48,604 nt of DNA from positions 124,270-172,873 of the forward strand of contig NZ_BAAAHE010000011.1 of assembly GCF_039525035.1 (NCBI RefSeq), in the 5' to 3' direction. The stretch comes from Sporichthya brevicatena (GTDB lineage: Bacteria > Actinomycetota > Actinomycetes > Sporichthyales > Sporichthyaceae). How positions within the stretch are numbered: position 1 is the stretch's first letter; every line of letters starts with the position of its first letter. A program made the position numbers and the translations under genes. Under the pieces are notes generated by a model, which was not told where the DNA came from, did not search any database, and saw only the letters and a program-made list of their open reading frames with translations. Positions 33,923 to 46,437 of the stretch are shown here, one piece after another.

Positions 33923-34711
33923 TCAGCCGGCCGAACCGCTCTTCGTCAGGAACCGGCGGACGATCCGTTCGTGATCGTCGGTGTCGAAGGAGGCGAACTC
34001 CTCCGCGAGGGCGTACTCAAGGACCCCGGTCATGGCCCGCGAGAGATGCATGTTCAGGGCCTTCTTCGTCGTCCGCACCGCATGCGCCGGCTGCGCCGCC
34101 AGCCGTCCCGCGAGGGCGAGGGCCTCCGGCAACAGGTCCGCGCCGGGAACCGTACGGTTCGCGAGTCCGATCGCGACGGCCTCCGCGGCCGGGATGCGAT
34201 CACCTGTCAGGAGATACTCCTTCGCGCGGAGCAGGCTCATGAGCAACGGCCACGCCGGGGCCCCTCCGTCCGCGGCCGTGAGGCCGGCCGAGACGTGGGG
34301 GTCGGCCATGTAGGTGCCCTCGGCGATCAGGACGATGTCCGAGAGCGCCGCCAGGCTGCAGCCCAGACCGACCGCCGGGCCGTTCACCGCGGCGACGATC
34401 GGCAGCGGGAAATCGACCATCGCCAGCACCAGGCGGCGCGCGTTCTCGATCTCCTTGCGCCGCATGTGCACATCGGTCCGGCAGGCGGCCAGGTGATGCA
34501 TGTCGCCGCCGGCGCTGAAGGCGTGCCCGGCTCCGGTCAGCACGACGGCACGGGCCTCGGGATCGGCGCCGAGCGGCGACCAGACCTCGATGAGTGCGTC
34601 GTGCAGACGCTCGTTGCTGGCGTTGAAGGCGTCGGGCCGATTGAGCACGACCAGGCGAATGCCGTTGCCCCGATCCTCCACGAGGAGTTCGGGCTCGAAC
34701 TGTGCGTACAA
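33923..34711 (-). CDS. Enoyl-CoA hydratase/isomerase family protein, atypical active site
   Basis: A 262-residue crotonase-fold protein. The oxyanion-hole motifs VLTGAGHAFSAGGDMHHL and PIVAAVNGPAVGLGCSLAALSD are intact. Both hydratase glutamates are replaced: Ser at the E144 position (GLGCSLAAL) and His at the E164 position (ADPHVSAGL). It therefore probably catalyses another crotonase-type reaction. The start is TTG 34711 by conservation of the N-terminal strand (YAQFEPELLVEDRG); an internal GTG about 10 codons later is possible. It is a single leftward gene following the GntR-type gene at 34770. Confidence 0.82.
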   Translation of the reverse strand: MYAQFEPELLVEDRGNGIRLVVLNRPDAFNASNERLHDALIEVWSPLGADPEARAVVLTGAGHAFSAGGDMHHLAACRTDVHMRRKEIENARRLVLAMVDFPLPIVAAVNGPAVGLGCSLAALSDIVLIAEGTYMADPHVSAGLTAADGGAPAWPLLMSLLRAKEYLLTGDRIPAAEAVAIGLANRTVPGADLLPEALALAGRLAAQPAHAVRTTKKALNMHLSRAMTGVLEYALAEEFASFDTDDHERIVRRFLTKSGSAG

Positions 34712-34769
34712 GTACTACCGACCGATCTGACGGGCAGGACAGTCCGGACGCGCCCCGAGGATCACGGGC

Positions 34770-35576
34770 TCACGTCAGGATGTCGAGCAACTTTTCCTCT
34801 CCAGCCGCACCGAACGCGTGGGCGGCCCCGTCCGCGAGGTGCTTGTCCCACAAGGCTTCCGCCGTTCCGGCGTCGCCGACGTCGATGAGCTCGATGAGTC
34901 GCCGGTGCGCCTCCGCGGCCGTGCGCGCAGCGAGCTCGGCGTCCGGGCCGCTCTCCCCCTGCGCCCGGGAGACGCCGGCCTGGTCGATGATCTCCTGGAC
35001 CAGCTGTCCGAGCAGAACCAGCGTGCTGTTGCCGGTCAGGCTCAGCAGGAGCTGGTGGAAGTCGTTGTGCCGGCGCGCGCGTTCCTCCGCGGTGAGCCCG
35101 GCTTCCTCCGCCGCCTCCAGCGCCCCGCGCAACTGGGCGATGTCGTCCGCCCGGCCCCGTCGAGCGAGCATGCGGACGCACGGCACCTCCAGAAGACTTC
35201 GTACCTCGCAGACGTCGGCCAGCGTGGTCCCCTGGTACTGCAGCAGCAGGCCGGCGTACCGAGCCGCGACCTCGCGCCGGGGAGCGCAGACCCGAGCCCC
35301 ACCGCGCGCGCCCCGCTGGATGACGATCAGGGACTCGGACTCCAACACCCGAAGCGCTTCCCGCAGGGTCGGACGGGACACCCCGTACTGCGACATCAGG
35401 GCCGCTTCCCCCGGCAGCGCCTCGCCCTCCGCCAACTCGTTGCGGATGATGCGCCGGCGCAGGTCGAGCGCGACCAGCTCCGCCATCTTGGGCAGGCGCA
35501 CACGCCGTTCGTCCTGGCTCGGCTCCGCCGCCGCCGTCGGCGTCGTCACGTCCTCTTCGACTGTGCCCACTTGCAC
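34770..35576 (-). CDS. GntR-family regulator (FadR/FCD type)
   Basis: A 268-residue regulator. The first about 27 residues are a flexible leader. The winged helix follows (LVALDLRRRIIRNELAEGEALPGEAALMSQYGVSRPTLREALRVLE). The FCD domain contains EVRSLLEVPCVRML, NDFHQLLLSLTGN and EAHRRLIELIDVGD. The GTG at 35576 gives the full frame. It is divergent from the aldolase/DUF35 genes and next to a crotonase gene, both of which it may control. It is only distantly similar to the other GntR-type protein of the window. Confidence 0.9.
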   Translation of the reverse strand: MQVGTVEEDVTTPTAAAEPSQDERRVRLPKMAELVALDLRRRIIRNELAEGEALPGEAALMSQYGVSRPTLREALRVLESESLIVIQRGARGGARVCAPRREVAARYAGLLLQYQGTTLADVCEVRSLLEVPCVRMLARRGRADDIAQLRGALEAAEEAGLTAEERARRHNDFHQLLLSLTGNSTLVLLGQLVQEIIDQAGVSRAQGESGPDAELAARTAAEAHRRLIELIDVGDAGTAEALWDKHLADGAAHAFGAAGEEKLLDILT

Positions 35577-35655
35577 CGCTTCCTCGGTCGCCTGGCGGCC
35601 CGGCCGCCGGGGTTCACCGGCGCCGGACGGTTGCGCGTCCTGGCCGACGATACCG

Positions 35656-35675
35656 TATAATTATCTAAATAGAAA
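35656..35675. promoter_or_regulatory. AT-rich element upstream of the aldolase gene
   Basis: An AT-rich stretch with the palindrome ATAATTAT (35657-35664), followed by CTAAATAGAAAAC, sits 20-40 bp before the aldolase start and in the divergent gap with the GntR-type gene. It is a plausible -10 region or operator. Confidence 0.4.
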
Positions 35676-35694
35676 ACGTCCTAGAAGGAGTTCG

Positions 35695-36831
35695 ATGTCG
35701 GTCGCTGTGGTGGGTATCGGACGAACCTCCTTCACCCGCGCGTCGGGCCGCACGACCCAGGCGATGGCCGTCGAGGCCTGCCGCGCCGCGATCTCCGACG
35801 CGGGGCTCACCGTGGCCGACGTCGACGGCTGGGCGAGCTTCCAGTACAACGACTCGACGATGTCGGGCGAGGTGGCCTGGGCCGCCGGCCGCGACGAGGT
35901 CGAGTGGGCGCCGACCCTGTTCGGCGGCGGTGACATGGCCGCGCAGGTCGTCCAGGACGCCGTCGCCGCGATCGAGTCGGGCCGCTGCCGAGCGGTGGTG
36001 GCCTTCCGTTCGCTGAACGGCCGGTCCGGCTACCGGTTCGGGACCGTGGCCAAGCAGCTCGAGGTCACCGGCAAGCATCAGTTCGACGCTCCGTCAGCAT
36101 TCCTGGTGCCTCCACAGTTCGTCGCCTCCTGGGCGCGCCGCTACCAACACACCTACGGCAGCACCGAACTCGACCTGGCCGCGGTGGCCGTCACCCAACG
36201 AACGCATGCCCAGGCTAATCCGCACGCCGCGATGCGCGAGCCACTGACCGTCGACGACTACCTCGCGAGTCGGTGGGTGTGCGACCCCTTCCGGGTCAAC
36301 GACTGCGCCTTCGAGGTCGACGGCGCGGTGGCCGTCGTCCTCGCCGGTGCCGAGCTCGCCCGCGGCTGCCGGCACACGCCGATCTGGTACCGAGGTGGTT
36401 CCGGTTCCTGGAGCGGTTCGGGGTGGACGACGTGGGACGACATGACGTCGATGTACTCCCGCTCGGCCGGCCCTCGCCTGTGGCAGCGGACGGGATTCAC
36501 GCCGGCCGACGTCGACGTCGCCTGCATGTACGACTGCTTCACCTACACGGTGCTGGCAACGCTTGAGGACTACGAATTCTGCGAACGCGGGCAAGCTGGC
36601 GCCTTCCTGAGCGAAGGACGCGGCACTCACGGCGGGGACGTCGTGGTCAATCCGCACGGCGGCTTGCTCTCCGAGGGGTACATCCACGGCATGAACCACC
36701 ACTACGAAGCAGTCCTGCAGCTCCGCCGCGAAGCCGGCGAACGTCAGGTCCAGGACGCGTCGGTCGCCCTGGTCAGCGCGGGCGCGGGGCCGTTCGGCGG
36801 GGCCCTGATCTACAGCCGGGAGGCGGCGTGA
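35695..36831 (+). CDS. Thiolase-fold lipid-transfer protein, Ltp2-type aldolase
   Basis: A 378-residue thiolase-fold protein without the usual catalytic Cys (the region reads LFGGGDMAAQVVQDA). Instead it keeps Y279 in MYDCFTY and Y329 in GYIHGMN, 50 residues apart, the same separation as Tyr294 and Tyr344 of the steroid side-chain aldolase Ltp2. NPHGGLLSEGYIHGMN is the family's most conserved block. Ltp2 cleaves a hydroxyacyl-CoA side chain by retro-aldol reaction, releasing propionyl-CoA, and requires a DUF35 partner, which is encoded immediately downstream. The ATG at 35695 has AAGGAG 4 nt upstream. The same chemistry on an unknown substrate is likely here. Confidence 0.85.
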   Translation: MSVAVVGIGRTSFTRASGRTTQAMAVEACRAAISDAGLTVADVDGWASFQYNDSTMSGEVAWAAGRDEVEWAPTLFGGGDMAAQVVQDAVAAIESGRCRAVVAFRSLNGRSGYRFGTVAKQLEVTGKHQFDAPSAFLVPPQFVASWARRYQHTYGSTELDLAAVAVTQRTHAQANPHAAMREPLTVDDYLASRWVCDPFRVNDCAFEVDGAVAVVLAGAELARGCRHTPIWYRGGSGSWSGSGWTTWDDMTSMYSRSAGPRLWQRTGFTPADVDVACMYDCFTYTVLATLEDYEFCERGQAGAFLSEGRGTHGGDVVVNPHGGLLSEGYIHGMNHHYEAVLQLRREAGERQVQDASVALVSAGAGPFGGALIYSREAA

Positions 36832-37262
36832 CCAGCACCTTGGACCAGTCGACCGACCGGGGGCCGCTCTGGCCGTTGCCGATCCCGGACCCGGACACCC
36901 GGGGGTTCTGGGCCGCCACCGCGCAGGGCGTGCTCGCCGTGTGTCGGTGCCTGGACTGCCGTCAATGGATTCACGCGCCGCTGGAGCGCTGCCGGACCTG
37001 CATGGGTCCGGTGGAGTTCGCCCCGGTGAGCGGTCGGGGCACCCTCCACACCTGGATCGCGGTGAACCGGCAGGCCGTGCCGGGACCCGACGTGCCCTAC
37101 CTGGTCGGCGTGGCCGAACTGGAGGAGGCGCCGTCGATCCGCATCACCGGGGTGCTGCGGACGGCGACCGACCTACGCCCGCAGGTCGGCATGCCCGTGA
37201 CGATCGGCCTGGAACCGACCGCGGCCGGCGACTTCGTCGCTCCGGTCATCCTGCCGGCTTGA
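36828..37262 (+). CDS. DUF35 OB-fold/zinc-ribbon protein, aldolase partner
   Basis: A 144-residue protein with a rubredoxin-like zinc ribbon (C41-x2-C44 and C55-x2-C58) followed by an OB fold (GRGTLHTWIAVNRQ, PYLVGVAELEE, VTIGLEP). DUF35 proteins bind thiolase-fold partners and help position acyl-CoA; in steroid degradation the DUF35 domain of ChsH2 forms the Ltp2 aldolase complex. The GTG at 36828 overlaps the aldolase stop by 4 nt (GTGA), which suits an obligate complex. Its end overlaps the convergent pentapeptide gene by 17 nt. Confidence 0.9.
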   Translation: MTSTLDQSTDRGPLWPLPIPDPDTRGFWAATAQGVLAVCRCLDCRQWIHAPLERCRTCMGPVEFAPVSGRGTLHTWIAVNRQAVPGPDVPYLVGVAELEEAPSIRITGVLRTATDLRPQVGMPVTIGLEPTAAGDFVAPVILPA

Positions 37263-38154
37263 CGTCGTCCGCCAGCATCGCCAGCAGAGGCAGCGCCCGG
37301 CGAGCGTTGCCGCACCCTGCCATCTCCTGATCCAGGGTCGACCCCACGTCGGCGCGTTCGCCCAGCAGCGCGGCGGCATCGACCCGACGGGGCAGGCGTT
37401 GCCGGCTCCACTCGTCCATCGCACTGGGCGCCAGGACGACGACGCGCTCCAACCCCCGCGCCTCGCCCAGATCCGACCGCAACACCACGACCCCACCGAA
37501 CCGGGCGTCGTCGAAGCGGGACCGCGCGAACGTGCACCCCCGAAAGACGACGCCCACCAGAAGGGCACCCCCGAGGTCCGCTGCGCCCAGGTCAGCGCCG
37601 TTGAAAGTGGCCTCGAGCAGATCAGCCCCCGTCAGATCGGCACCGACGAACCGGGCTCCCCACGCACTGACGTTGGACAGCCGAGCGTTCGCAGCCGTGA
37701 CGTGTGCGGCGTCGGCACCGTCCAGTACGGCACCGACCAGGGAGGCGCCGGTCAGATCCGCGCGCCGCAGGTCGGCGCCCGAAAGGTTGACCGTCCTCAG
37801 TTCCTGACGATCATTCAGAACCGATGCCCACCCCACGGAGGCCACGCGCAGCACCGCGTCGGTCAGGCTGGCCGACGCCAGGTCGGCCCCCTGCAGATTG
37901 CACCCACTCAGGTCGGCGTTGCTGAGGTCGGAGAAGGAGAGTTCCGCTCCTCGCAGGTCGGCGTCGCGGAACACCGCTCCGGACGCTGCGATGCCCTCCC
38001 CGTGCGCACAGGCGTTCCGGAGATCCGCCTTGGTCAGGTCAGCACCGGCCAGCAAGGCGCCACTGAGATCAGCGTCCCGCAGGTTCGCGCCCACCAGGTC
38101 GGCGCCGCGCAGATCCGCGCGCCGCAGATCAACCCCCCGCAGATCCGCGCTCAT
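37246..38154 (-). CDS. Pentapeptide-repeat protein
   Basis: A 302-residue protein. Residues 1-225 are dense A(D/N)Lxx pentapeptide repeats (for example ADLRGVDLRRADLRGADLVG), interrupted near residues 48-60 and 105-120. This predicts a right-handed quadrilateral beta helix. The last 75 residues (LERVVVLAPSAMDEWSRQRLP to the end) are not repetitive. There is no signal peptide. The ATG at 38154 overlaps the stop of the Rieske gene upstream (ATGA), so it is the last cistron of the oxygenase operon. Pentapeptide proteins can mimic DNA or act as protein scaffolds; here a scaffold or resistance role is only a guess. Confidence 0.9.
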   Translation of the reverse strand: MSADLRGVDLRRADLRGADLVGANLRDADLSGALLAGADLTKADLRNACAHGEGIAASGAVFRDADLRGAELSFSDLSNADLSGCNLQGADLASASLTDAVLRVASVGWASVLNDRQELRTVNLSGADLRRADLTGASLVGAVLDGADAAHVTAANARLSNVSAWGARFVGADLTGADLLEATFNGADLGAADLGGALLVGVVFRGCTFARSRFDDARFGGVVVLRSDLGEARGLERVVVLAPSAMDEWSRQRLPRRVDAAALLGERADVGSTLDQEMAGCGNARRALPLLAMLADDVKPAG

Positions 38155-39041
38155 GCCGTCGTGGAGACCCGATCGCCGGACTCCCCGATCGGCGAGGACT
38201 CCAGGTCCGCACGCCAGGCCCGGAATGACCGCAGCGGCTCCTCCCCCGACCCGCCAGGCAGGGGTTGGTAGGCCATGTCCGCGACCAGGCCGAGGATTCG
38301 ATCCATCGCGCGGTCCGACGCACGCGCATCACCGGTGATCGCCGTCAGGATCCGCACCGTGTCGTCGACCACCGGGAGGATGGCGACCGTGAGTGACCAA
38401 CCCGGCCCGACGACGACACCGGTGGCCACGTCGAGGACAGCCGTCCGGACCGCCGCACCGTCGTCGCGTCGGTACTCGACCTCGAAGCGGGTGTCCGAGC
38501 TGGTCGGAACCCCGGCGAGATCGATCTCGCCGCCGGCGAGGAATCTCAACAGCGCCGGATCGACCAGCGCTTCGAGGATCAGCCGCGGGTCGGCGACGAG
38601 CTCGCGCGTGACCCAGGCCCGAGTCGCGTCGTTCGGAAGGTCCGGCGCCGGCCGCTGCGGTTGCGGCTGGTCGGCCGAACCGGAGTACCACAGGAAGACC
38701 AGCCCACCCTGCTCCGCGACGGTCCAGGGACGGATCCGCCGGCCGCGGTGCGTACGGCTGTCGTAGGGGATGTCGGTGTTCTCGCCGGCCGGCGACCACG
38801 CCCACCCGTGGTAGAAGCACCGCACGTCCTCACCACAGACGCGCCCGTTGTAGCCGAGGTGCGCTCCGAGGTGCTGACAGAAGGCGTCCAACGCATGCAG
38901 CTCACCGGACTCACCACGCCACAGGACCAGTTCCTTGCCCTGGACGCGGAGGGGAATCACTCCACCGACGGGCAACTCGGACAGCACGGAGACCGGCAAC
39001 CACCCGCGCAGTACCGCGCCTCCACTCGCCACCGTGGTCAT
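38151..39041 (-). CDS. Rieske oxygenase-like protein A: intact [2Fe-2S] site, degenerate catalytic iron site
   Basis: A 296-residue homologue of KshA/VanA-type Rieske oxygenases. The Rieske domain is complete: C55-x-H57 and C75-x2-H78 (FCQHLGAHLG, RCFYHGW). In the catalytic domain the segment that should read E-N-x2-D-x2-H-x4-H reads EALVDPALLRFLA. D161 is kept, but the two iron-binding His align with L164 and A169. The C-terminal ligand region (D-x2-I-W in the third homologue) is not recognisable. It should carry a redox cluster but no mononuclear iron. The ATG at 39041 overlaps the next Rieske-like gene (ATGA). It may donate electrons across a subunit interface to protein C (45436-46437); alternatively it has become a ferredoxin-like carrier. 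Confidence 0.87.
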   Translation of the reverse strand: MTTVASGGAVLRGWLPVSVLSELPVGGVIPLRVQGKELVLWRGESGELHALDAFCQHLGAHLGYNGRVCGEDVRCFYHGWAWSPAGENTDIPYDSRTHRGRRIRPWTVAEQGGLVFLWYSGSADQPQPQRPAPDLPNDATRAWVTRELVADPRLILEALVDPALLRFLAGGEIDLAGVPTSSDTRFEVEYRRDDGAAVRTAVLDVATGVVVGPGWSLTVAILPVVDDTVRILTAITGDARASDRAMDRILGLVADMAYQPLPGGSGEEPLRSFRAWRADLESSPIGESGDRVSTTA

Positions 39042-39928
39042 GCGCGCCCGATCCAGGTACGAACGACAGCGAGACCCGATCGCCGGGCCGGAACGACCCG
39101 CTCCTGGTCCCGGCGAACGGCCGCGACCACCTCCGCGAGCCGCCCCGCCATCCCGGCCCAGTCGGCACCACCACCCCAGGCACAGGTCCGGAGCTCCAGC
39201 GACTCGTCGGCTCCGGTCGGAGTCGTCCCGATCAAGGCCCCGCCGCTGTTGTGGCCGGTCGCCGAGACCGACATCAGCAGCGTGCCGAACGCGCGGACGT
39301 CAACGGTGCACTCCGGTCGTCGATCAACCGCGAACTGAAGGTGCAGAACGTCGTCGGTCGCCACCGGCACGCGAGGTTCTCCGGTCACCCCGACCCCGAG
39401 GACGTAACTCAAGGTGCAGGGGTCCGCGAGGGACTCGAGCACCGCCAGCGGATGGCTGGCCACGGCCCGCGTGGTCGGCCGGGAGATCCATGCTTCGGGC
39501 GACGGGAGGCGCGGAACGTCCGGAGGCACCCGTTCCCCGCCGCACACGAGCACAAGTCCGTGCACCTCCGTGACAGCGTGGTGGCGGAGAACCAGCCCTG
39601 GTTCGGATCGGTGGACGACACCGCTCGGCTCCGTGGCCGAGCCGTCGAACGACCACAACCAGCCGTCGACCGAGGACCGGATGCCGGTCGGCTCCACCGA
39701 GCCGTCCGTCAGGGGGTACCCCCGTCGGGGGCACCGGCGGTCGGCCGCGCGGACATGCCCGTCGGCGTCGCGATACAGCAGCAGATCCATCCCCTCCACC
39801 CGCGTCGGGACGAGGGCTCCCGCGACGACGTCGTCCGACCAGGCCGCCGCGATCCAGTTGCTTGCCGAGCGCCTCACCGGGACCTCCGCCTGGGGAGTCA
39901 CCGGGTCGACGGGAGCCGGCGCACCCAT
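39038..39928 (-). CDS. Rieske oxygenase-like protein B: both metal sites degenerate
   Basis: A 296-residue homologue of the two other Rieske-type proteins of the window. In the Rieske domain only C66 of the four ligands remains: His is R68 (CPRRGYPLTDG), the second Cys is S85 and the second His is D88 (IRSSVDGWLW). In the catalytic domain the iron motif reads ESLADPCTLSYVL. The bridging Asp (D169) is kept, but the His positions are T172 and L177. It should bind neither a [2Fe-2S] cluster nor iron. The fold-defining residues around the lost ligands (RGYPLTDGS, DGWLWSFDG) are conserved, so the reading frame is under selection as a structural subunit. The ATG at 39928 shares a base with the aldehyde dehydrogenase stop (TGATG); an ATG at 39937 is also in frame. 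Confidence 0.85.
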   Translation of the reverse strand: MGAPAPVDPVTPQAEVPVRRSASNWIAAAWSDDVVAGALVPTRVEGMDLLLYRDADGHVRAADRRCPRRGYPLTDGSVEPTGIRSSVDGWLWSFDGSATEPSGVVHRSEPGLVLRHHAVTEVHGLVLVCGGERVPPDVPRLPSPEAWISRPTTRAVASHPLAVLESLADPCTLSYVLGVGVTGEPRVPVATDDVLHLQFAVDRRPECTVDVRAFGTLLMSVSATGHNSGGALIGTTPTGADESLELRTCAWGGGADWAGMAGRLAEVVAAVRRDQERVVPARRSGLAVVRTWIGRA

Positions 39929-41433
39929 CACGGCCATTCGGAACCGACCAATCCGTACGGCCGGCAGTCGAGGTCGTTCTCGTCCAGGCTCGTGTAGACG
40001 TGCTTCATCTGGGTGTACTCGAGCATCCCTTCCGGACCCCACTCGCGGCCGAATCCGCTCTGCTTGTAACCCCCGTAGGGCGCCGGCGCCAGAACTCCGT
40101 ACGTGTTGATCCACACCGTCCCGGCCTGGATCCGGCGCGCCACGGCGCGGGCCGCGAGCGTCGAACCCCAGACGACCGCTCCGAGTCCGTACCTCGTGTT
40201 GTTGGCCAGGGCGACACCCTCCTCGACGGTGTCGTAGGGCAGCACGACAAGCACCGGACCGAAGACCTCCTCCTGGGCGATCTCCATGTCGGGCGTCACG
40301 TCGGTGAGCACCGTCGGTTCGAAGAACCACCCGTCCGCTCCGTCGACGACGGCGCGCCGGCCCCCGGTGAGGACCTTCGCGCCCTCGCTCACCGCTCGCT
40401 CCACCATCGCCTCCACGCGGAGGCACTGCTGCTCGGAGATCAGCGGGCCGACGTCGGTCGCGAAGTCCTCGGCGGGGCCGAGCTTCAGCGCCTCCGTGCG
40501 CTTGCGGACCAGGTCTACTGCTACGTCGTAGAGACCGGAGGGCACCAGGAGCCGGGTGGTCGCGACGCAGGCCTGCCCGGCGTGCATGAACGCGGCGAAC
40601 AACGTGCCACGGACGGCCAGTTCCAGGTCGCCGTCCGGCAGCACCAGACTCGGGGACTTGCCCCCGAGCTCCAACGTCAGCCGCTTGACGGTGGGCGCCG
40701 CCGCCGCCATGACACGCGATCCGACCTCCGTGCTGCCCGTGAAGCTGATGTGGTCGACACCCGGATGCGCGACCAGCGCCTTGCCCGCCTCCTGGTCCCC
40801 GTGCACCAGGTTGACGACCCCGGCCGGCACGCCCGCTGCCTCGCAGGCACGGACGAACTCGACGCTGGCGAGCGGCGTCAGCGGCGAAGACTTGATGACC
40901 ACCGTGTTCCCCATCAGGATCGGCGGAACGACCTTCCAGATGGTCATCAGCAGGGGGAAGTTGAAGGGGACGAAGCCGGCGCAGACGCCGACCGGCTCGC
41001 GCAGCACGTCACTCTGACCGACGGCCGGAGCAGTCACGATCGGTCCGGACTTGACCTCCTCCAGCAGGCCCGCCCACTCCGCCATGTCACGGACCATCCC
41101 GATGGGGGTACCGGTCTGCATGAGGCCGGACAACCGCGCCGGGCAGCCGGCCTCGCGCGGGATCAGCTCGTCGAGCACCGGCAGGCGGGCCTCCAACTCG
41201 GCCGCGAGTCGCAGCACGACGTCGCCTCGGGCGGCCGCACTCAGACGGGGCCAGGGGCCTTCGTCGAACGCTCGGCGAGCCGCTGCCACGGCCGCCGCGA
41301 CGGTCTCGACATCGCTGTCGGGAACCTCGGCGATCGGCGTCAGGTGGGACGGATCGACAACGGGAATCCAGTCTCCGCTGCCACCGTCCACCCATTCGCC
41401 GTCGATGTAGTTCAAGGCGCGGGTCGAGCTCAT
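39928..41433 (-). CDS. NAD(P)+-dependent aldehyde dehydrogenase
   Basis: A 501-residue aldehyde dehydrogenase with C289 as nucleophile (HAGQACVATTRLLV) and E255 as base (LELGGKSPS). VPFNFP is the cofactor motif (PF instead of the usual PW), and FTGSTEVG and GGYKQSGFGREWG are intact. The GQACV context is that of general aldehyde and betaine-type enzymes. The ATG at 41433 overlaps the SCP2-like gene by 4 nt. Within this operon it probably oxidises an aldehyde produced by side-chain cleavage or by hydroxylation at a terminal carbon. Confidence 0.92.
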   Translation of the reverse strand: MSSTRALNYIDGEWVDGGSGDWIPVVDPSHLTPIAEVPDSDVETVAAAVAAARRAFDEGPWPRLSAAARGDVVLRLAAELEARLPVLDELIPREAGCPARLSGLMQTGTPIGMVRDMAEWAGLLEEVKSGPIVTAPAVGQSDVLREPVGVCAGFVPFNFPLLMTIWKVVPPILMGNTVVIKSSPLTPLASVEFVRACEAAGVPAGVVNLVHGDQEAGKALVAHPGVDHISFTGSTEVGSRVMAAAAPTVKRLTLELGGKSPSLVLPDGDLELAVRGTLFAAFMHAGQACVATTRLLVPSGLYDVAVDLVRKRTEALKLGPAEDFATDVGPLISEQQCLRVEAMVERAVSEGAKVLTGGRRAVVDGADGWFFEPTVLTDVTPDMEIAQEEVFGPVLVVLPYDTVEEGVALANNTRYGLGAVVWGSTLAARAVARRIQAGTVWINTYGVLAPAPYGGYKQSGFGREWGPEGMLEYTQMKHVYTSLDENDLDCRPYGLVGSEWP

Positions 41434-41819
41434 GTCAGCTCGATCGTCGTCATCGTGTCGATGATGTACTTGAACGCGCTCATGTTCTTGAGCAGCGTCG
41501 ACATCTTCCCCTTGACGCTCAACTGACCACGCGTCAAGGCGATGGTCGGGTCGATCGTCTTGGTCAGCACCCCCCGCCAGACCTCGCCGTCCCCACTGAT
41601 GACGAAGTCGGCCTGGATGTCGCCACGCGACTCGAGTTCGCGAACTTCGCTGACACGACCCTTCTCGTAGCGGACGAAGAACGCCTTGTCCACGGGGGAT
41701 CCGTAGTCGTAGACCATGGTGTAGGTGATGTCGACGCCTTGCATCCCGGTCCACTCGGGATCGGCGTTCAGCGCCCGCGCCATTTCCTCGTACACCTCGA
41801 CGGTGCCGAACTGCGCCAT
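41430..41819 (-). CDS. SCP2-like sterol/lipid-binding protein
   Basis: A 129-residue protein resembling SCP2 domains: an N-terminal helix pair, beta strands (DITYTMVYDYG, AFFVRYEKGRV, QADFVISGDGEVWRGVL) and a C-terminal hydrophobic helix near LSVKGKMSTLLKNMSAF. SCP2 domains bind sterols, fatty acyl-CoA and similar ligands. The ATG at 41819 has AAGGAGG 6 nt upstream. It is coupled to the aldehyde dehydrogenase gene. It may solubilise or present a hydrophobic substrate to the oxygenases of the operon. Confidence 0.82.
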   Translation of the reverse strand: MAQFGTVEVYEEMARALNADPEWTGMQGVDITYTMVYDYGSPVDKAFFVRYEKGRVSEVRELESRGDIQADFVISGDGEVWRGVLTKTIDPTIALTRGQLSVKGKMSTLLKNMSAFKYIIDTMTTIELT

Positions 41820-41860
41820 GAGTACCTCCTTCGTTCAGTGTTCAGTTGCCGACGTGAACC

Positions 41861-43099
41861 TCAGACCGTTTCCAGGAGAAGTTCCGTGTGACCACGGACC
41901 GCCGACAGATGACGGACGGGCGTGGTGCCGGGCTGAATTCGGTAATTGGGCATCAGCCGATGCCACTCGCGCAGAGCGATCCGGAGTTCTAGGCGCGCGA
42001 CGTGGGAGCCCAGGCAGCGATGTGCTCCAGCCCCGAAAGCGATGTGACGGTTGGGATTCCGGGAGAAGTCGATTGAGCCCGCGTTCGGGAACTGGTCCTC
42101 GTCGCGACACGCGGAACTCATCATCAGCAGGACTCGGTCGCCCTCGCTCATGTCGACCCCGCGGATTGTCACGTCACGCGTCAACCGGCGACCCGGAAGC
42201 ACCGGGGCAAACCAGCGGAGTAGCTCCTCGACGGCGGAATCGATCCGTTCCGGGTGCTCGACGATCTCCCGCCGGTAGTCCTCGTGGGTGGCCAGGAACT
42301 CCATACTCATGCTCAGGACGCCTTGAACCGTGTCGAGGCCGGCGATGAGCACGATGAAGATGCAGTCGAGAATCTCGAACGTGCTCAGAGGCCGTTCGTC
42401 ACCGAACGAGGCGCTGCGAAGCCAGTCGATGAAATCGCGGCCCTCAGAGGTGTTGGGCGGACCCAGCTCCTCCCTGCGGTCCAGCTCCTCGGCGAAGTAC
42501 GAGACGAGTTCGAGAGCCGTCGCCTCCTTGATGCGCGCCGACTCCTCCGGATCGTCGGAAGGCTGACGCATCAGCTTCTCGGTCCACTCAAGGAACCGGG
42601 GCGCGTCCTCGAGCGGCCATCCCATCATGTCCAGGAACACCCGCGTGGGGAGCACCTGCGCGAAATCCTTGACGTAGTCGCAGGAGCCCTTCGCAGCAAT
42701 CTCGGCGACGAGCGCTTCGGCATGTTCCTGAATCTTGGCCTCCAGGGGACGCACCCGCCTGACCGTGAAAAGCGGGGCGAGAATCTCCCGGTACTTCGCG
42801 TGGTCCGGAGGGTCGATCTCGACCGGAATCACCGGGCGAGCGCTGCCGATTCCGTTGGCCGGGATCGGGTTCGGGTACGACGAGAACAGCTCCGGCTCCT
42901 GATAGGCACGGAAGACGTCGTCGTACTTCGACAGCATCCAGAAGCCGCCGTAACGTTCACTCTTCGCGACCGGGCAGCGCTCGCGCATCCGGTCGAAGAG
43001 GGCGTCCGCACCGCCCTGGACGTCCTCGTTCCAGTAGTGGAACTGAGAGATCTCGGGATCGTCGGACCCGACGTTCATTTCGGCGACACTTTCAGTCAT
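41861..43099 (-). CDS. Cytochrome P450 monooxygenase
   Basis: A 412-residue bacterial class I P450. The heme signature FGAGAHRCLG contains the axial Cys C362. The E-x2-R pair is E292/R295, and the I-helix reads IAGLDTV (residues 252-258; the second Thr of the usual DTT is Val). All core elements are present and the length is normal. The ATG at 43099 overlaps the ferredoxin stop by 8 nt. It is expected to hydroxylate a C-H bond of the pathway substrate with electrons from the adjacent ferredoxin. Family number cannot be assigned by eye; CYP125- or CYP142-like identity is not evident. Confidence 0.93.
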   Translation of the reverse strand: MTESVAEMNVGSDDPEISQFHYWNEDVQGGADALFDRMRERCPVAKSERYGGFWMLSKYDDVFRAYQEPELFSSYPNPIPANGIGSARPVIPVEIDPPDHAKYREILAPLFTVRRVRPLEAKIQEHAEALVAEIAAKGSCDYVKDFAQVLPTRVFLDMMGWPLEDAPRFLEWTEKLMRQPSDDPEESARIKEATALELVSYFAEELDRREELGPPNTSEGRDFIDWLRSASFGDERPLSTFEILDCIFIVLIAGLDTVQGVLSMSMEFLATHEDYRREIVEHPERIDSAVEELLRWFAPVLPGRRLTRDVTIRGVDMSEGDRVLLMMSSACRDEDQFPNAGSIDFSRNPNRHIAFGAGAHRCLGSHVARLELRIALREWHRLMPNYRIQPGTTPVRHLSAVRGHTELLLETV

Positions 43100-43286
43100 C
43101 CGACACCTCCACGGTGATCGCGCGTTCAGGACAGTTCTGCTCCGCCTCTCGGGCCGCGGCGAGATCGTTCCCGGAACCCGGCCGGACGACGGCCATACCC
43201 GCGTCGTCGTGCTCGAAAATCTCGGGTGCATGGGACAAGCACAGGCCGTGTCCACTGCACCGCCGAGCGTCAATGACGACCTTCAT
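43092..43286 (-). CDS. [3Fe-4S] ferredoxin, P450 redox partner
   Basis: A 64-residue single-cluster ferredoxin. Cys ligands are in RRCSGHGLCLSHAP (C-x5-C) and EQNCPERAI (C-P). The position of the fourth ligand is His (SGHGLC), the pattern of P450-associated [3Fe-4S] ferredoxins in actinomycetes. It is translationally coupled to the P450 gene and surely serves it. The ferredoxin reductase is not in the window. Confidence 0.93.
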   Translation of the reverse strand: MKVVIDARRCSGHGLCLSHAPEIFEHDDAGMAVVRPGSGNDLAAAREAEQNCPERAITVEVSDD

Positions 43287-43299
43287 CGCTCGTGGCCCC

Positions 43300-44124
43300 T
43301 CAACGGGACGTCAGCCCGGCGTCGACGGGCATCTGGATCCCGGTGACGTACCGGCCGTGGTCCGATACCAGGTACAGCACCGCTCGGCTGACGTCGATCG
43401 ATTCGATGACCGGCACCGGGAGCGCGTTGACCGCTTGTTCCCCGAGCTCGGGATTCGCCGCGATGAACTCCGGGAAGAACTCGTTCACGACCATCGGGGT
43501 GGCCACTCCTGTCGGATGGATCGAGTTCACGCGGATGCCGTGCTTGCCCAGCGCATTCGCGTAGGCCTTCACCAGACCCACGACCCCGAACTTCGAGGCG
43601 AAGTAGCCGTCGGTACCCCCGCCCATGTCCGTCCCCGAGGCGCGGAGGCCGGCGGAGGAACTGGTGACGACAATCGATCCCCCGCGGCCGCCGGCAATGA
43701 GGTGAGGGACTGTCACCTGAAGGGTGTTCCAGACACCGGTCAGCATGATGTCGATGGAGTCGCGCCAAGCCTCGCGCGAGTTCTCGATCGGGGGCACACC
43801 GTGCGCCATGACACCGGCGTTGGCCAGGACGATGTCCAGCCGCCCCAGTTCGGCCACCCCAGCGCGCACCGCGGCGTCGAGCTGGTCGTAATCCCGGACA
43901 TCGCCCTCCACGGCGATGATCCGGCGGTCCAGCTTCTCCACCAGGGCGACCGTCTCCGCGAGGTCGTCCGGAGTCGCCATCGGATAACTAACCGTGTCCA
44001 GTTGCCGACACACATCGACGCCGATGATGTCCACGCCCTGCTCGGCCAACGCCACCGCATGGGAACGGCCCTGCCCACGGGCCACACCCGTGATGAATGC
44101 GACCTTGCCTTCCAACCCGTACAC
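43300..44124 (-). CDS. Mycofactocin-coupled type SDR oxidoreductase
   Basis: A 274-residue SDR. The cofactor motif is TGVARGQGRSHAVALAEQG, followed by IIGVDVCRQLDTVSYPMAT, an insertion characteristic of the mycofactocin-coupled SDR family (TIGR03971), whose NAD is not exchangeable and is reoxidised by mycofactocin. The catalytic residues are in VVTSSSAG and the Tyr-x3-Lys in GYFASKFGV. The GTG at 44124 is the only good start. No mycofactocin synthesis genes lie in the window. It probably oxidises an alcohol produced by the P450 or Rieske oxygenase. Confidence 0.9.
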   Translation of the reverse strand: MYGLEGKVAFITGVARGQGRSHAVALAEQGVDIIGVDVCRQLDTVSYPMATPDDLAETVALVEKLDRRIIAVEGDVRDYDQLDAAVRAGVAELGRLDIVLANAGVMAHGVPPIENSREAWRDSIDIMLTGVWNTLQVTVPHLIAGGRGGSIVVTSSSAGLRASGTDMGGGTDGYFASKFGVVGLVKAYANALGKHGIRVNSIHPTGVATPMVVNEFFPEFIAANPELGEQAVNALPVPVIESIDVSRAVLYLVSDHGRYVTGIQMPVDAGLTSR

Positions 44125-44135
44125 CGCAGCCCTCT

Positions 44136-45299
44136 CTACGCCGTGGCGACCGGGTCGGCGAACCCGAGCGACCGGCCCACGATCTCTTTCATGACCTCAT
44201 TGGTCCCGCCATAGATCCGCGAGACCCGCGAATCCCGCCAGATGCGCGCGATCTCGTACTCGTTCACGTAGCCGTAGCCGCCGTGCATCTGCAGACAGCG
44301 GTCGACGATCTCCCACTGGGTTTCCGTCGCCCACCACTTCGCGCCGGCCGCCTCCTCGGCGGTCAGGTCGCCGGCGTTGACAGCGAGGATGCAACGGTCG
44401 AGATAGGCACGCAGGACGTCGAGCTTGATCCGGATCTCCGCCAGGGCATGCCGGTTGGCCTGGAACGTACCGACCGGCCGCCCGAACGCCTCGCGATCGC
44501 CGGCGTACTGCGTCGTGAGCGCGAACGCCCGCTCCGCCGCCCCCGCGGCCTGCAGCGCGATACCGAGACGTTCGCGGGGCAGGTTGGCCATCAGGTGGTA
44601 GAAGCCCCGATCCTCGGTCCCGATCAGGTTCTCCACCGGCACGCGGACGTCGACGAAGGAGAGCTCGGCCGTGTCCTGGGAGTGCTGGCCGATCTTGTCC
44701 AGCTGTCGGCCACGAGTGAAGCCCTCGGTACCGCTTTCCACGACGATCAGGCTGAGGCCTCGGTGGCCGTCCATCTCGGACGTGCGGCAGACCACCAGCA
44801 CGAGGTCCGCCAGCAGACCGTTGCTGATGAACGTCTTCGACCCGTTGATGACGTAGTGGTCGCCGTCGCGACGGGCTGAGGTCCGTACCGCGCGGACGTC
44901 CGAGCCGGCACCCGGTTCGGAGATGGCGATCGCGCCGATCAGCTCGCCGGCGACGAATCCCGGCAGCCATCGTGCTTTCTGCTCCGGGGTCGTCAGGTCG
45001 AGCAGGTACGGCAGGAGGATCTCGTTCTGCAGGCCCAGCCCGATGCCCACCGTGCCCGTGGCCCAGAACTCCTCGATCAGGACCGCGTTGAAGCGGAAGT
45101 CGACCAGGCCGAGCCCGCCGTACTCCTCTGGAGCCTCCCAGGCGAGCAGCCCCTGCTTCCCCGCGGCCCGCCAGGCCTCGCGGCTGACCTGCCCCGCACG
45201 CTCCCACTCGTCGACGTACGGCACACAGTCCCGCTCGAAGAACTCCCGGCAGGTGGCGCGGAAGTCATCGTGCGAAGGATCGAAAATTCCGCGCTGCAT
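44136..45299 (-). CDS. Acyl-CoA dehydrogenase, stand-alone type
   Basis: A 387-residue dehydrogenase of ordinary homotetrameric type: GAIAISEPGAGSDVRAV, NGSKTFISNG, REAFGRPVGTFQANRHALAEIRI, LQMHGGYGYVNEYEIARIWRD and RIYGGTNEVMKEIVGR. Unlike the paired dehydrogenases, it carries both complete halves and lacks WCQGFSEP. LPRERLGIALQAAG is the segment that in long-chain and isovaleryl-type enzymes holds the catalytic base. The ATG at 45299 is preferred over an open upstream frame without ribosome site. It is divergent from the Rieske-like gene at 45436. Confidence 0.93.
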   Translation of the reverse strand: MQRGIFDPSHDDFRATCREFFERDCVPYVDEWERAGQVSREAWRAAGKQGLLAWEAPEEYGGLGLVDFRFNAVLIEEFWATGTVGIGLGLQNEILLPYLLDLTTPEQKARWLPGFVAGELIGAIAISEPGAGSDVRAVRTSARRDGDHYVINGSKTFISNGLLADLVLVVCRTSEMDGHRGLSLIVVESGTEGFTRGRQLDKIGQHSQDTAELSFVDVRVPVENLIGTEDRGFYHLMANLPRERLGIALQAAGAAERAFALTTQYAGDREAFGRPVGTFQANRHALAEIRIKLDVLRAYLDRCILAVNAGDLTAEEAAGAKWWATETQWEIVDRCLQMHGGYGYVNEYEIARIWRDSRVSRIYGGTNEVMKEIVGRSLGFADPVATA

Positions 45300-45315
45300 G
45301 ATGTGGACCCTCGAA

Positions 45316-45427
45316 CTAGTAGTAAGAGTTAACTGATTAGACCGTAGATGGCGCGGGCAGCTTGTGTCCAGCGGCCTTGCTCGCTCGCTCCCCACGCACA
45401 TATAGTAAAATAAATCGACTCTTAAGG
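45316..45427. promoter_or_regulatory. AT-rich divergent promoter region with candidate operators
   Basis: Between the dehydrogenase (leftward, from 45299) and Rieske-like protein C (rightward, from 45436) there are two AT-rich blocks: 45316-45342, containing the palindrome AGTTAACT at 45327-45334, and 45401-45427, containing TAGTAAAATAAATCG. TAAGAGT on one strand near 45324-45329 has an inverted counterpart ACTCTTA at 45419-45425. This could be a pair of sites for one regulator. Confidence 0.4.
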
Positions 45428-45435
45428 ACGCCCCG

Positions 45436-46437
45436 ATGCGCCATCGAGCTATCGCCGGCTGGAACCGTCGGACCTTCCCGACGGGCTGGTTCCAAGTCGC
45501 CTGGTCACCCGAGCTGGAACCGGGACAACTCGCAGCACGCCGGTACTGGGGTCGAGACCTCGTCGTCTGGCGGTCAGAGTCGGGCGCGGTGCACCTCATG
45601 GAGGCCCACGAGGGGCGTCGGGGCCTCGACCTGACCCGCTGGGGCCAGGTCGAAGGGGAGTCGATCCGGTGCATCCTCGACGGCTGGCAGTGGCAGCCGG
45701 ACGGGACCGCGCGCGACGACACCGGCGCCGCCGTCGACGTGGGAGCGCTACGTTCGTTCCCCGCCGTCGAGATCTCCGGCCTGGTCCTCGCCTGGTACGA
45801 CGAGAACGGCGATCCGCCATCCTGGTCGGTGGAGGGCGGCGAAGAGGCGACCTCCCCCGACTACTACCCCGCCTGGCCCCACGGGGCCGTTTTGGACCTG
45901 ATGTCGTGTCAGCCCCAGGTGATGGCGGAAAACATTGCCGACGTCGTGCACGTCCGCTACGCACACCGCTGGCTCGACATCCCGACGATCACCGAGTGGG
46001 ACGACTCGTCGCCACGACTCGAGGTCGGGTACGAGGGAAACTTCCCCTCCCCGCGCGGGCCGGTTCACGCGGTGTTCCACAACACCGCGTGGGGCTTCGG
46101 CGTCATGCGTACGAGCATGACGAGCATCCGGAAGTTCGTGCACTACATCTGCCCCACTCCGATCGACCACACGATGATGGACGTCCGGTTGAGCGCCTGG
46201 GTCGAACGCGCGCCCGACGACACCGGCGACCGTCCGGACTCGATCGCTGCGGCCCTGATCCGAGCGCAGCGAGACGAGGTTCTCGGACCAAATGTGGATC
46301 GCAGCATCTGGGAGAACCAGGCCTACATGGAACAGCCGGCCTTTCGGAGCCAGGAGCGGCAGTACGTCCAGTTTCGGCGCTGGTGCGCTCAGTTCTATCC
46401 GCACGAGCCGCGGCCCCAGCGGGCGGCCTCCCGCTAA
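45436..46437 (+). CDS. Rieske oxygenase-like protein C: intact catalytic iron site, degenerate Rieske site
   Basis: A 333-residue KshA-like oxygenase. The catalytic domain keeps ENIADVVHVRYAH (165-177): bridging D169, iron ligands H172 and H177 with the spacing of naphthalene dioxygenase (D205, H208, H213), and a probable third ligand D288 in VDRSIWEN. The end RQYVQFRRWCAQFY matches KshA-type C-termini. The Rieske domain aligns without gaps to protein A but has lost three ligands: the first Cys is E59, the first His R61 and the second His D82. Only C79 remains (AHEGRRG, RCILDGW). It should bind catalytic iron but no [2Fe-2S] cluster, so it needs an external Rieske donor; protein A is the obvious candidate. 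The ATG has AAGGA 8 nt upstream. Confidence 0.88.
   Translation: MRHRAIAGWNRRTFPTGWFQVAWSPELEPGQLAARRYWGRDLVVWRSESGAVHLMEAHEGRRGLDLTRWGQVEGESIRCILDGWQWQPDGTARDDTGAAVDVGALRSFPAVEISGLVLAWYDENGDPPSWSVEGGEEATSPDYYPAWPHGAVLDLMSCQPQVMAENIADVVHVRYAHRWLDIPTITEWDDSSPRLEVGYEGNFPSPRGPVHAVFHNTAWGFGVMRTSMTSIRKFVHYICPTPIDHTMMDVRLSAWVERAPDDTGDRPDSIAAALIRAQRDEVLGPNVDRSIWENQAYMEQPAFRSQERQYVQFRRWCAQFYPHEPRPQRAASR

Follow-up and report, generated by a model that had tools for sequence, protein, structure and literature searches.

Rieske oxygenases are assigned an electron transfer that leads into the neighboring subunit, yet each chain of the homotrimers carries both metal sites. Three homologues of KshA, the oxygenase of 3-ketosteroid 9alpha-hydroxylase, that are encoded in a 48,604-nucleotide stretch of Sporichthya brevicatena DNA (the window) raise the question of whether the two sites can be distributed over different chains. 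None of these proteins, termed A, B, and C (Table 1), carries both metal sites in one chain. In KshA and its relatives, the Rieske cluster hands its electrons on to the iron in the adjacent subunit via a conserved Asp, over about 12 Å (PMC4064121, PMC12445004), which is the route that had been assumed in an initial reading of the window made from the sequence alone (the sequence-only reading). Judged from the sequences, it is rather probable, though far from assured, that A, B, and C form one KshA-like hetero-oligomeric Rieske oxygenase that was split by the stepwise decay of paralogues.

Table 1. Features of the gene cluster, in window positions
Feature	Position	Strand	Basis or remark
Pentapeptide-repeat protein	37246..38154	-	Pfam; start overlaps the stop of A (ATGA)
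Protein A, KshA-like subunit	38151..39041	-	Complete ORF, Pfam, ligand alignment, predicted model
Protein B, KshA-like subunit	39038..39928	-	Complete ORF, Pfam, ligand alignment, predicted model
Aldehyde dehydrogenase (ALDH)	39928..41433	-	Pfam; coupled to B
SCP-2 sterol-carrier domain protein	41430..41819	-	Pfam
Cytochrome P450	41861..43099	-	Pfam, NCBIfam
Mycofactocin-coupled SDR oxidoreductase	43300..44124	-	Pfam, NCBIfam
Acyl-CoA dehydrogenase (ACAD), first operon gene	44136..45299	-	48% identity to the ACAD of the congener cluster
136-bp gap separating the divergently oriented genes of ACAD (start 45299) and C (start 45436)	45300..45435	.	Possible shared control region
Protein C, KshA-like subunit	45436..46437	+	Complete ORF, Pfam, ligand alignment

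Alignment with intact relatives bears out the ligand assignments of the sequence-only reading for all three proteins. The Rieske site of A is intact (C55, H57, C75, and H78), and its iron-binding His residues are replaced by L164 and A169; the third carboxylate ligand is also lost, a point missed by the sequence-only reading, so that the aligned ligand string reads CHCH / D / LA / lost. The mononuclear iron motif of C is intact (D169/H172/H177, plus the third carboxylate D288), and three of its four Rieske ligands are replaced by Glu, Arg, and Asp (ERCD / D / HH / D). Both sites are gone in B, where the aligned Rieske columns contain C, R, S, and D and the iron His columns T and L; a D is aligned in the third-carboxylate column, but the surrounding region is mostly deleted. 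The bridging Asp was, as had been claimed, found at equivalent positions in all three (D161 in A, D169 in B, and D169 in C). Across alignments of 37 sequences, in which A, B, and intact relatives are represented, neither this residue nor the Glu four residues earlier (E157 in A) varies. As a pair, A and C show the ligand pattern of a split oxygenase, with the Rieske site only in one chain and the iron site only in the other.

By sequence evidence, these ligand losses appear to be neither decay nor sequencing error. The three genes contain no stops or frameshifts, and their codon-position GC and synonymous codon scores resemble those of neighboring genes. Each lost site shows several independent replacements, two of which are common to B and C. 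With intact ORFs, normal codon use, and multiple replacements, there is no indication of the sequencing error that the sequence-only reading had named as a possible objection. Ligands were surveyed in 200 KshA-like ORFs, redundant copies counted, which came from loci of the S. brevicatena genome, of related genomes, and of 80 named genome contigs. The only degenerate cases were A, B, C, and the A-type protein of a congener; the other full-length ORFs keep the four Rieske ligands and the two His residues, which argues that the degeneracy of A, B, and C is not due to chance. The genome of S. brevicatena contains 27 Rieske domains.

Several loci of the survey deserve mention in their own right. 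Four loci of uncultured freshwater actinobacteria (L109, L118, L126, and L148) appeared to lack the second His but were rejected as degenerate cases: their iron ligands follow an HxxxH instead of an HxxxxH spacing, with an insertion after them, and are hence intact. The tandem Rieske genes of the actinomycete G087 were likewise rejected, since all three oxygenase genes (L071, 7580-10919) are intact. In Williamsia sp. 1135 (L090, 9902-10981), a KshA-like gene is divided by one stop into ORFs for a Rieske half and a catalytic half, which may correspond to a pseudogene, a sequencing error, or a natural split. Two MAGs labeled Bifidobacterium breve (L093 and L098) contain a KshA-like gene nearly identical to that of Actinobacteria bacterium IMCC26207 and are probably mislabeled bins. 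In S. brevicatena itself, three small Rieske-domain proteins are encoded in tandem (G000:C24:85635-87246; L014, L018, and L025), at least one of them with a lipoprotein-like signal.

The best relative of C is C' of Sporichthya sp. MGR_bin378 (NZ_JACDFE010000003.1), with 39% identity. Across the class (394 genomes) and the phylum (396 genomes), no C orthologues were found besides that of the congener, and plasmid records yielded only distant ordinary Rieske oxygenases with at most about 34% identity to C over its length. A peptide-pattern search of genome contigs detected no close relatives of A. In MGR_bin378, the genes of A' and C' overlap by 4 bp, and the cluster has P450, SDR, and ACAD genes in common with that of S. 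brevicatena. A' possesses an intact Rieske site and keeps the D..H part of the iron motif, its second iron His being replaced by Ser, and C' has both metal sites intact. Among the five genomes of the order, two contain both the A and the C type and three contain neither. The sequence-only reading would have been contradicted had A and C never co-occurred in related genomes; the two types are in fact found together, as overlapping genes, in the sole other genome of the order to contain one of them.

The clade of C and C' received an SH-aLRT value of 99, and values of bootstrap 91 and SH-aLRT 74 after removal of the ligand columns. A and A' group with weak support, and both share a relaxed catalytic domain. 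A, B, and C as one exclusive clade was rejected (AU test, p 0.003), and the three are thus not fresh copies of one gene. As C' keeps both sites, site loss was probably stepwise: the A-type protein would have lost its iron site first, in the presence of an intact partner, and this partner would then have lost its Rieske site in the brevicatena lineage. A counterpoint to the split oxygenase is that C' of the congener does not need A'.

The two domains of these proteins also differ in their conservation. The Pfam Rieske score of C is 30.1 bits versus 65 bits for C', and the KshA_C scores are 74.5 and 75 bits, respectively, the match of C spanning the whole domain. For A and A', the Rieske scores are 61.5 and 70 bits, and KshA_C is matched by A' (29 bits) and not by A. 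PDB KshA aligns to A with 75 bits, confined to the Rieske part, and to C with 71 bits; NCBIfam gave no match above the cut-off. When branch lengths were fitted per domain on one topology of 31 sequences, the tip branches of C and C' measured 1.22 versus 0.46 in the Rieske domain (2.6-fold) and 0.77 versus 0.66 in the catalytic domain (1.2-fold), and A and A' ranked first and second of the 31 in excess catalytic-domain change. Among the 17 non-ligand catalytic columns with strong conservation, C keeps 16, A 9, and A' 10. Relative-rate site counts of C and C' point in the same direction but are borderline (p 0.03-0.26, depending on the outgroup; Fisher test not significant), and the ratio of Rieske to catalytic identity is ambiguous as a measure of rate, since a Rieske oxygenase that is distant but intact reaches a value as high as that of A. 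The domain-wise rates are consequently support, not proof, for an apparent relaxation that affects the catalytic domain in A and A' but the Rieske domain in C only.

The loss of catalytic residues in A and B is not accompanied by a loss of fold in the predicted structures. Modeled with AlphaFold2, A (pLDDT 82) and B (pLDDT 86) retain both the Rieske fold and the helix-grip catalytic domain and match solved KshA across them, with Z 27.3 over 278 residues for A and Z 23.2 over 283 residues for B. A is a full-length oxygenase fold with no reductase domain, according to Pfam and the predicted model. A Rieske domain was found by Pfam in all three proteins, with a score of 32.2 bits in the case of B. 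The origin of B is less straightforward. Its Rieske ligands 2 (Arg) and 4 (Asp) are replaced identically in C, and B has 8 derived Rieske-domain residues in common with C versus 2 with A; in the catalytic domain, however, B and A are reciprocal best matches. Given that B is C-like in one domain and A-like in the other, it may derive from C by a later duplication or be a hybrid with A. The AU test rejected B neither as a simple copy of C nor as one of A (p 0.40 and 0.42).

The genes for ACAD, SDR, P450, SCP-2, ALDH, B, A, and the pentapeptide-repeat protein are arranged in this order in one direction. From ALDH onwards, the last four overlap by 1-4 bp, as TGATG between ALDH and B and as ATGA at the other two junctions, and A and B are translationally coupled. 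C is encoded on the opposite strand, diverges from the operon head at a distance of 136 bp, and is uncoupled from A; a scan of the 136-bp region found no sigma-70 match. Further acyl-CoA genes are close to the cluster, the content of which suggests that a steroid- or terpenoid-like compound is broken down. No reductase is present in the annotated cluster, and three FAD_binding_6 candidates are encoded elsewhere in the genome. Neither a reductase-fused Rieske domain nor a GST-like partner was found among the genes annotated in the cluster. Two further features of the surroundings were observed. It is unusual for a pentapeptide-repeat gene to share an operon with an oxygenase subunit, and positions 34702-37262 contain a thiolase-like gene followed, with a 4-bp overlap, by a ChsH2-type OB-fold (DUF35) gene, an arrangement comparable to the Ltp2/ChsH2 steroid side-chain aldolase.

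From these data we infer the assembly, electron path, substrate class, and role of B as follows. A reductase encoded elsewhere would reduce the Rieske cluster of A, and the electron would then cross the head-to-tail subunit interface and reach the iron of C through the conserved Asp in that chain. At this mononuclear iron, O2 activation would lead to the oxidation of a hydrophobic substrate, probably one that resembles a steroid or terpenoid. B, as a doubly dead paralogue, would possibly be a structural or docking subunit. Since the cluster is found only in A and the iron only in C, the A-to-C interface alone would be workable within this gene cluster. The earlier proposal that A gives the cluster and C the active site is partly supported: it is in line with the domain-wise Pfam scores and rates, and it is complicated by the intact C' and by two intact paralogues. 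A more specific version, in which an obligate A:B:C heterotrimer has a single productive A-to-C interface and a structural B, represents the first bacterial case of complementary decay, and was preceded by the A'C' stage seen in MGR_bin378, is conceivable but doubtful.

C has some of its closest relatives in the two intact KshA-type paralogues of the same genome (G000:C34:11047-12012 and G000:C49:77184-78161), and one of them could supply the Rieske cluster to C in mixed trimers, with A being separate or accessory. This arrangement is unlikely, given that both paralogues are on other contigs than C, that of C34 adjoining transport and acyl-CoA genes, whereas A belongs to the operon adjacent to C, and that MGR_bin378 has A' and C' but no other KshA-type gene. 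The degeneration of A and B might also mean that one or both are regulatory or chaperone-like pseudoenzymes or relics that transfer no electrons, the Rieske site of A having remained intact by chance; catalytic conservation is lost in both proteins, and B has lost both sites. However, A keeps not only its Rieske ligands but also 25 of 33 conserved Rieske-domain positions, and the normal coding statistics and tight operon overlaps argue in the same direction, making relics or pseudoenzymes of this kind quite improbable.

Alternatively, A could use its Rieske cluster to deliver electrons to a different operon product, such as the P450, and C could be a mononuclear iron enzyme that operates without Rieske electrons in a peroxide-driven or non-redox reaction. 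A does have a cluster and no iron site, and no ferredoxin gene was seen beside the P450-containing operon. There is nevertheless only a slim chance that this is the case, since the conserved E157, the bridging D161, and the KshA fold of A fit a trimer interface, and A' adjoins the intact oxygenase subunit C'. If the split oxygenase formed by A, B, and C is real, such a natural separation of cluster and iron, together with a half-way relative, would permit direct tests of the intersubunit route, of half-site activity, and of the fate of redundant subunits. It would also provide a bacterial example of the conversion of a homo-oligomeric redox enzyme into an obligate hetero-oligomer.

Among known systems, KshA itself (2ZYL, 4QDC) shares the predicted fold of A and B, the KshA_C domain of C, the bridging Asp, and the spacing of the iron ligands. 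In the KshA homotrimer, however, every chain carries both metal sites, and in structure alignment the identity of KshA to A and B was about 20% or less. NdmA and NdmB chains are each a complete oxygenase, unlike A, B, and C. They resemble the present case in that a Rieske oxygenase is built from two different alpha-type chains, as alpha3alpha'3 (PMC12445004). Another parallel is the caffeine N7-demethylase NdmCDE, which the sequence-only reading had cited as a precedent for splitting: the oxygenase chain NdmC has no Rieske cluster of its own and uses that of NdmD (PMC4408171). In NdmCDE, the reductase NdmD carries the Rieske domain as a fusion, a GST-like helper is present, and there are no paralogous dead subunits.

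No paper on dead Rieske oxygenase subunits and no bacterial case of such a complementary split were found in the literature searched. Nevertheless, the idea that reciprocal loss has no precedent is wrong, in view of NdmC and of the two-chain chlorophyllide a oxygenase of Micromonas pusilla (MpCAO). Kunugi, in JBC in 2013, reportedly assigned the Rieske site to one MpCAO chain and the iron motif to the other. The two MpCAO polypeptides have been proposed to form a heterodimer or a trimer of dimers and are active with VanB (PMC9615114). In MpCAO, one Rieske oxygenase activity is divided between two chains and works with a Rieske reductase, as is proposed here for A and C. Whereas MpCAO is an algal chlorophyll enzyme of two chains, Sporichthya adds three new points: a KshA-like family in a bacterium, a third chain that is doubly dead, and a related Sporichthya genome that contains an intermediate.
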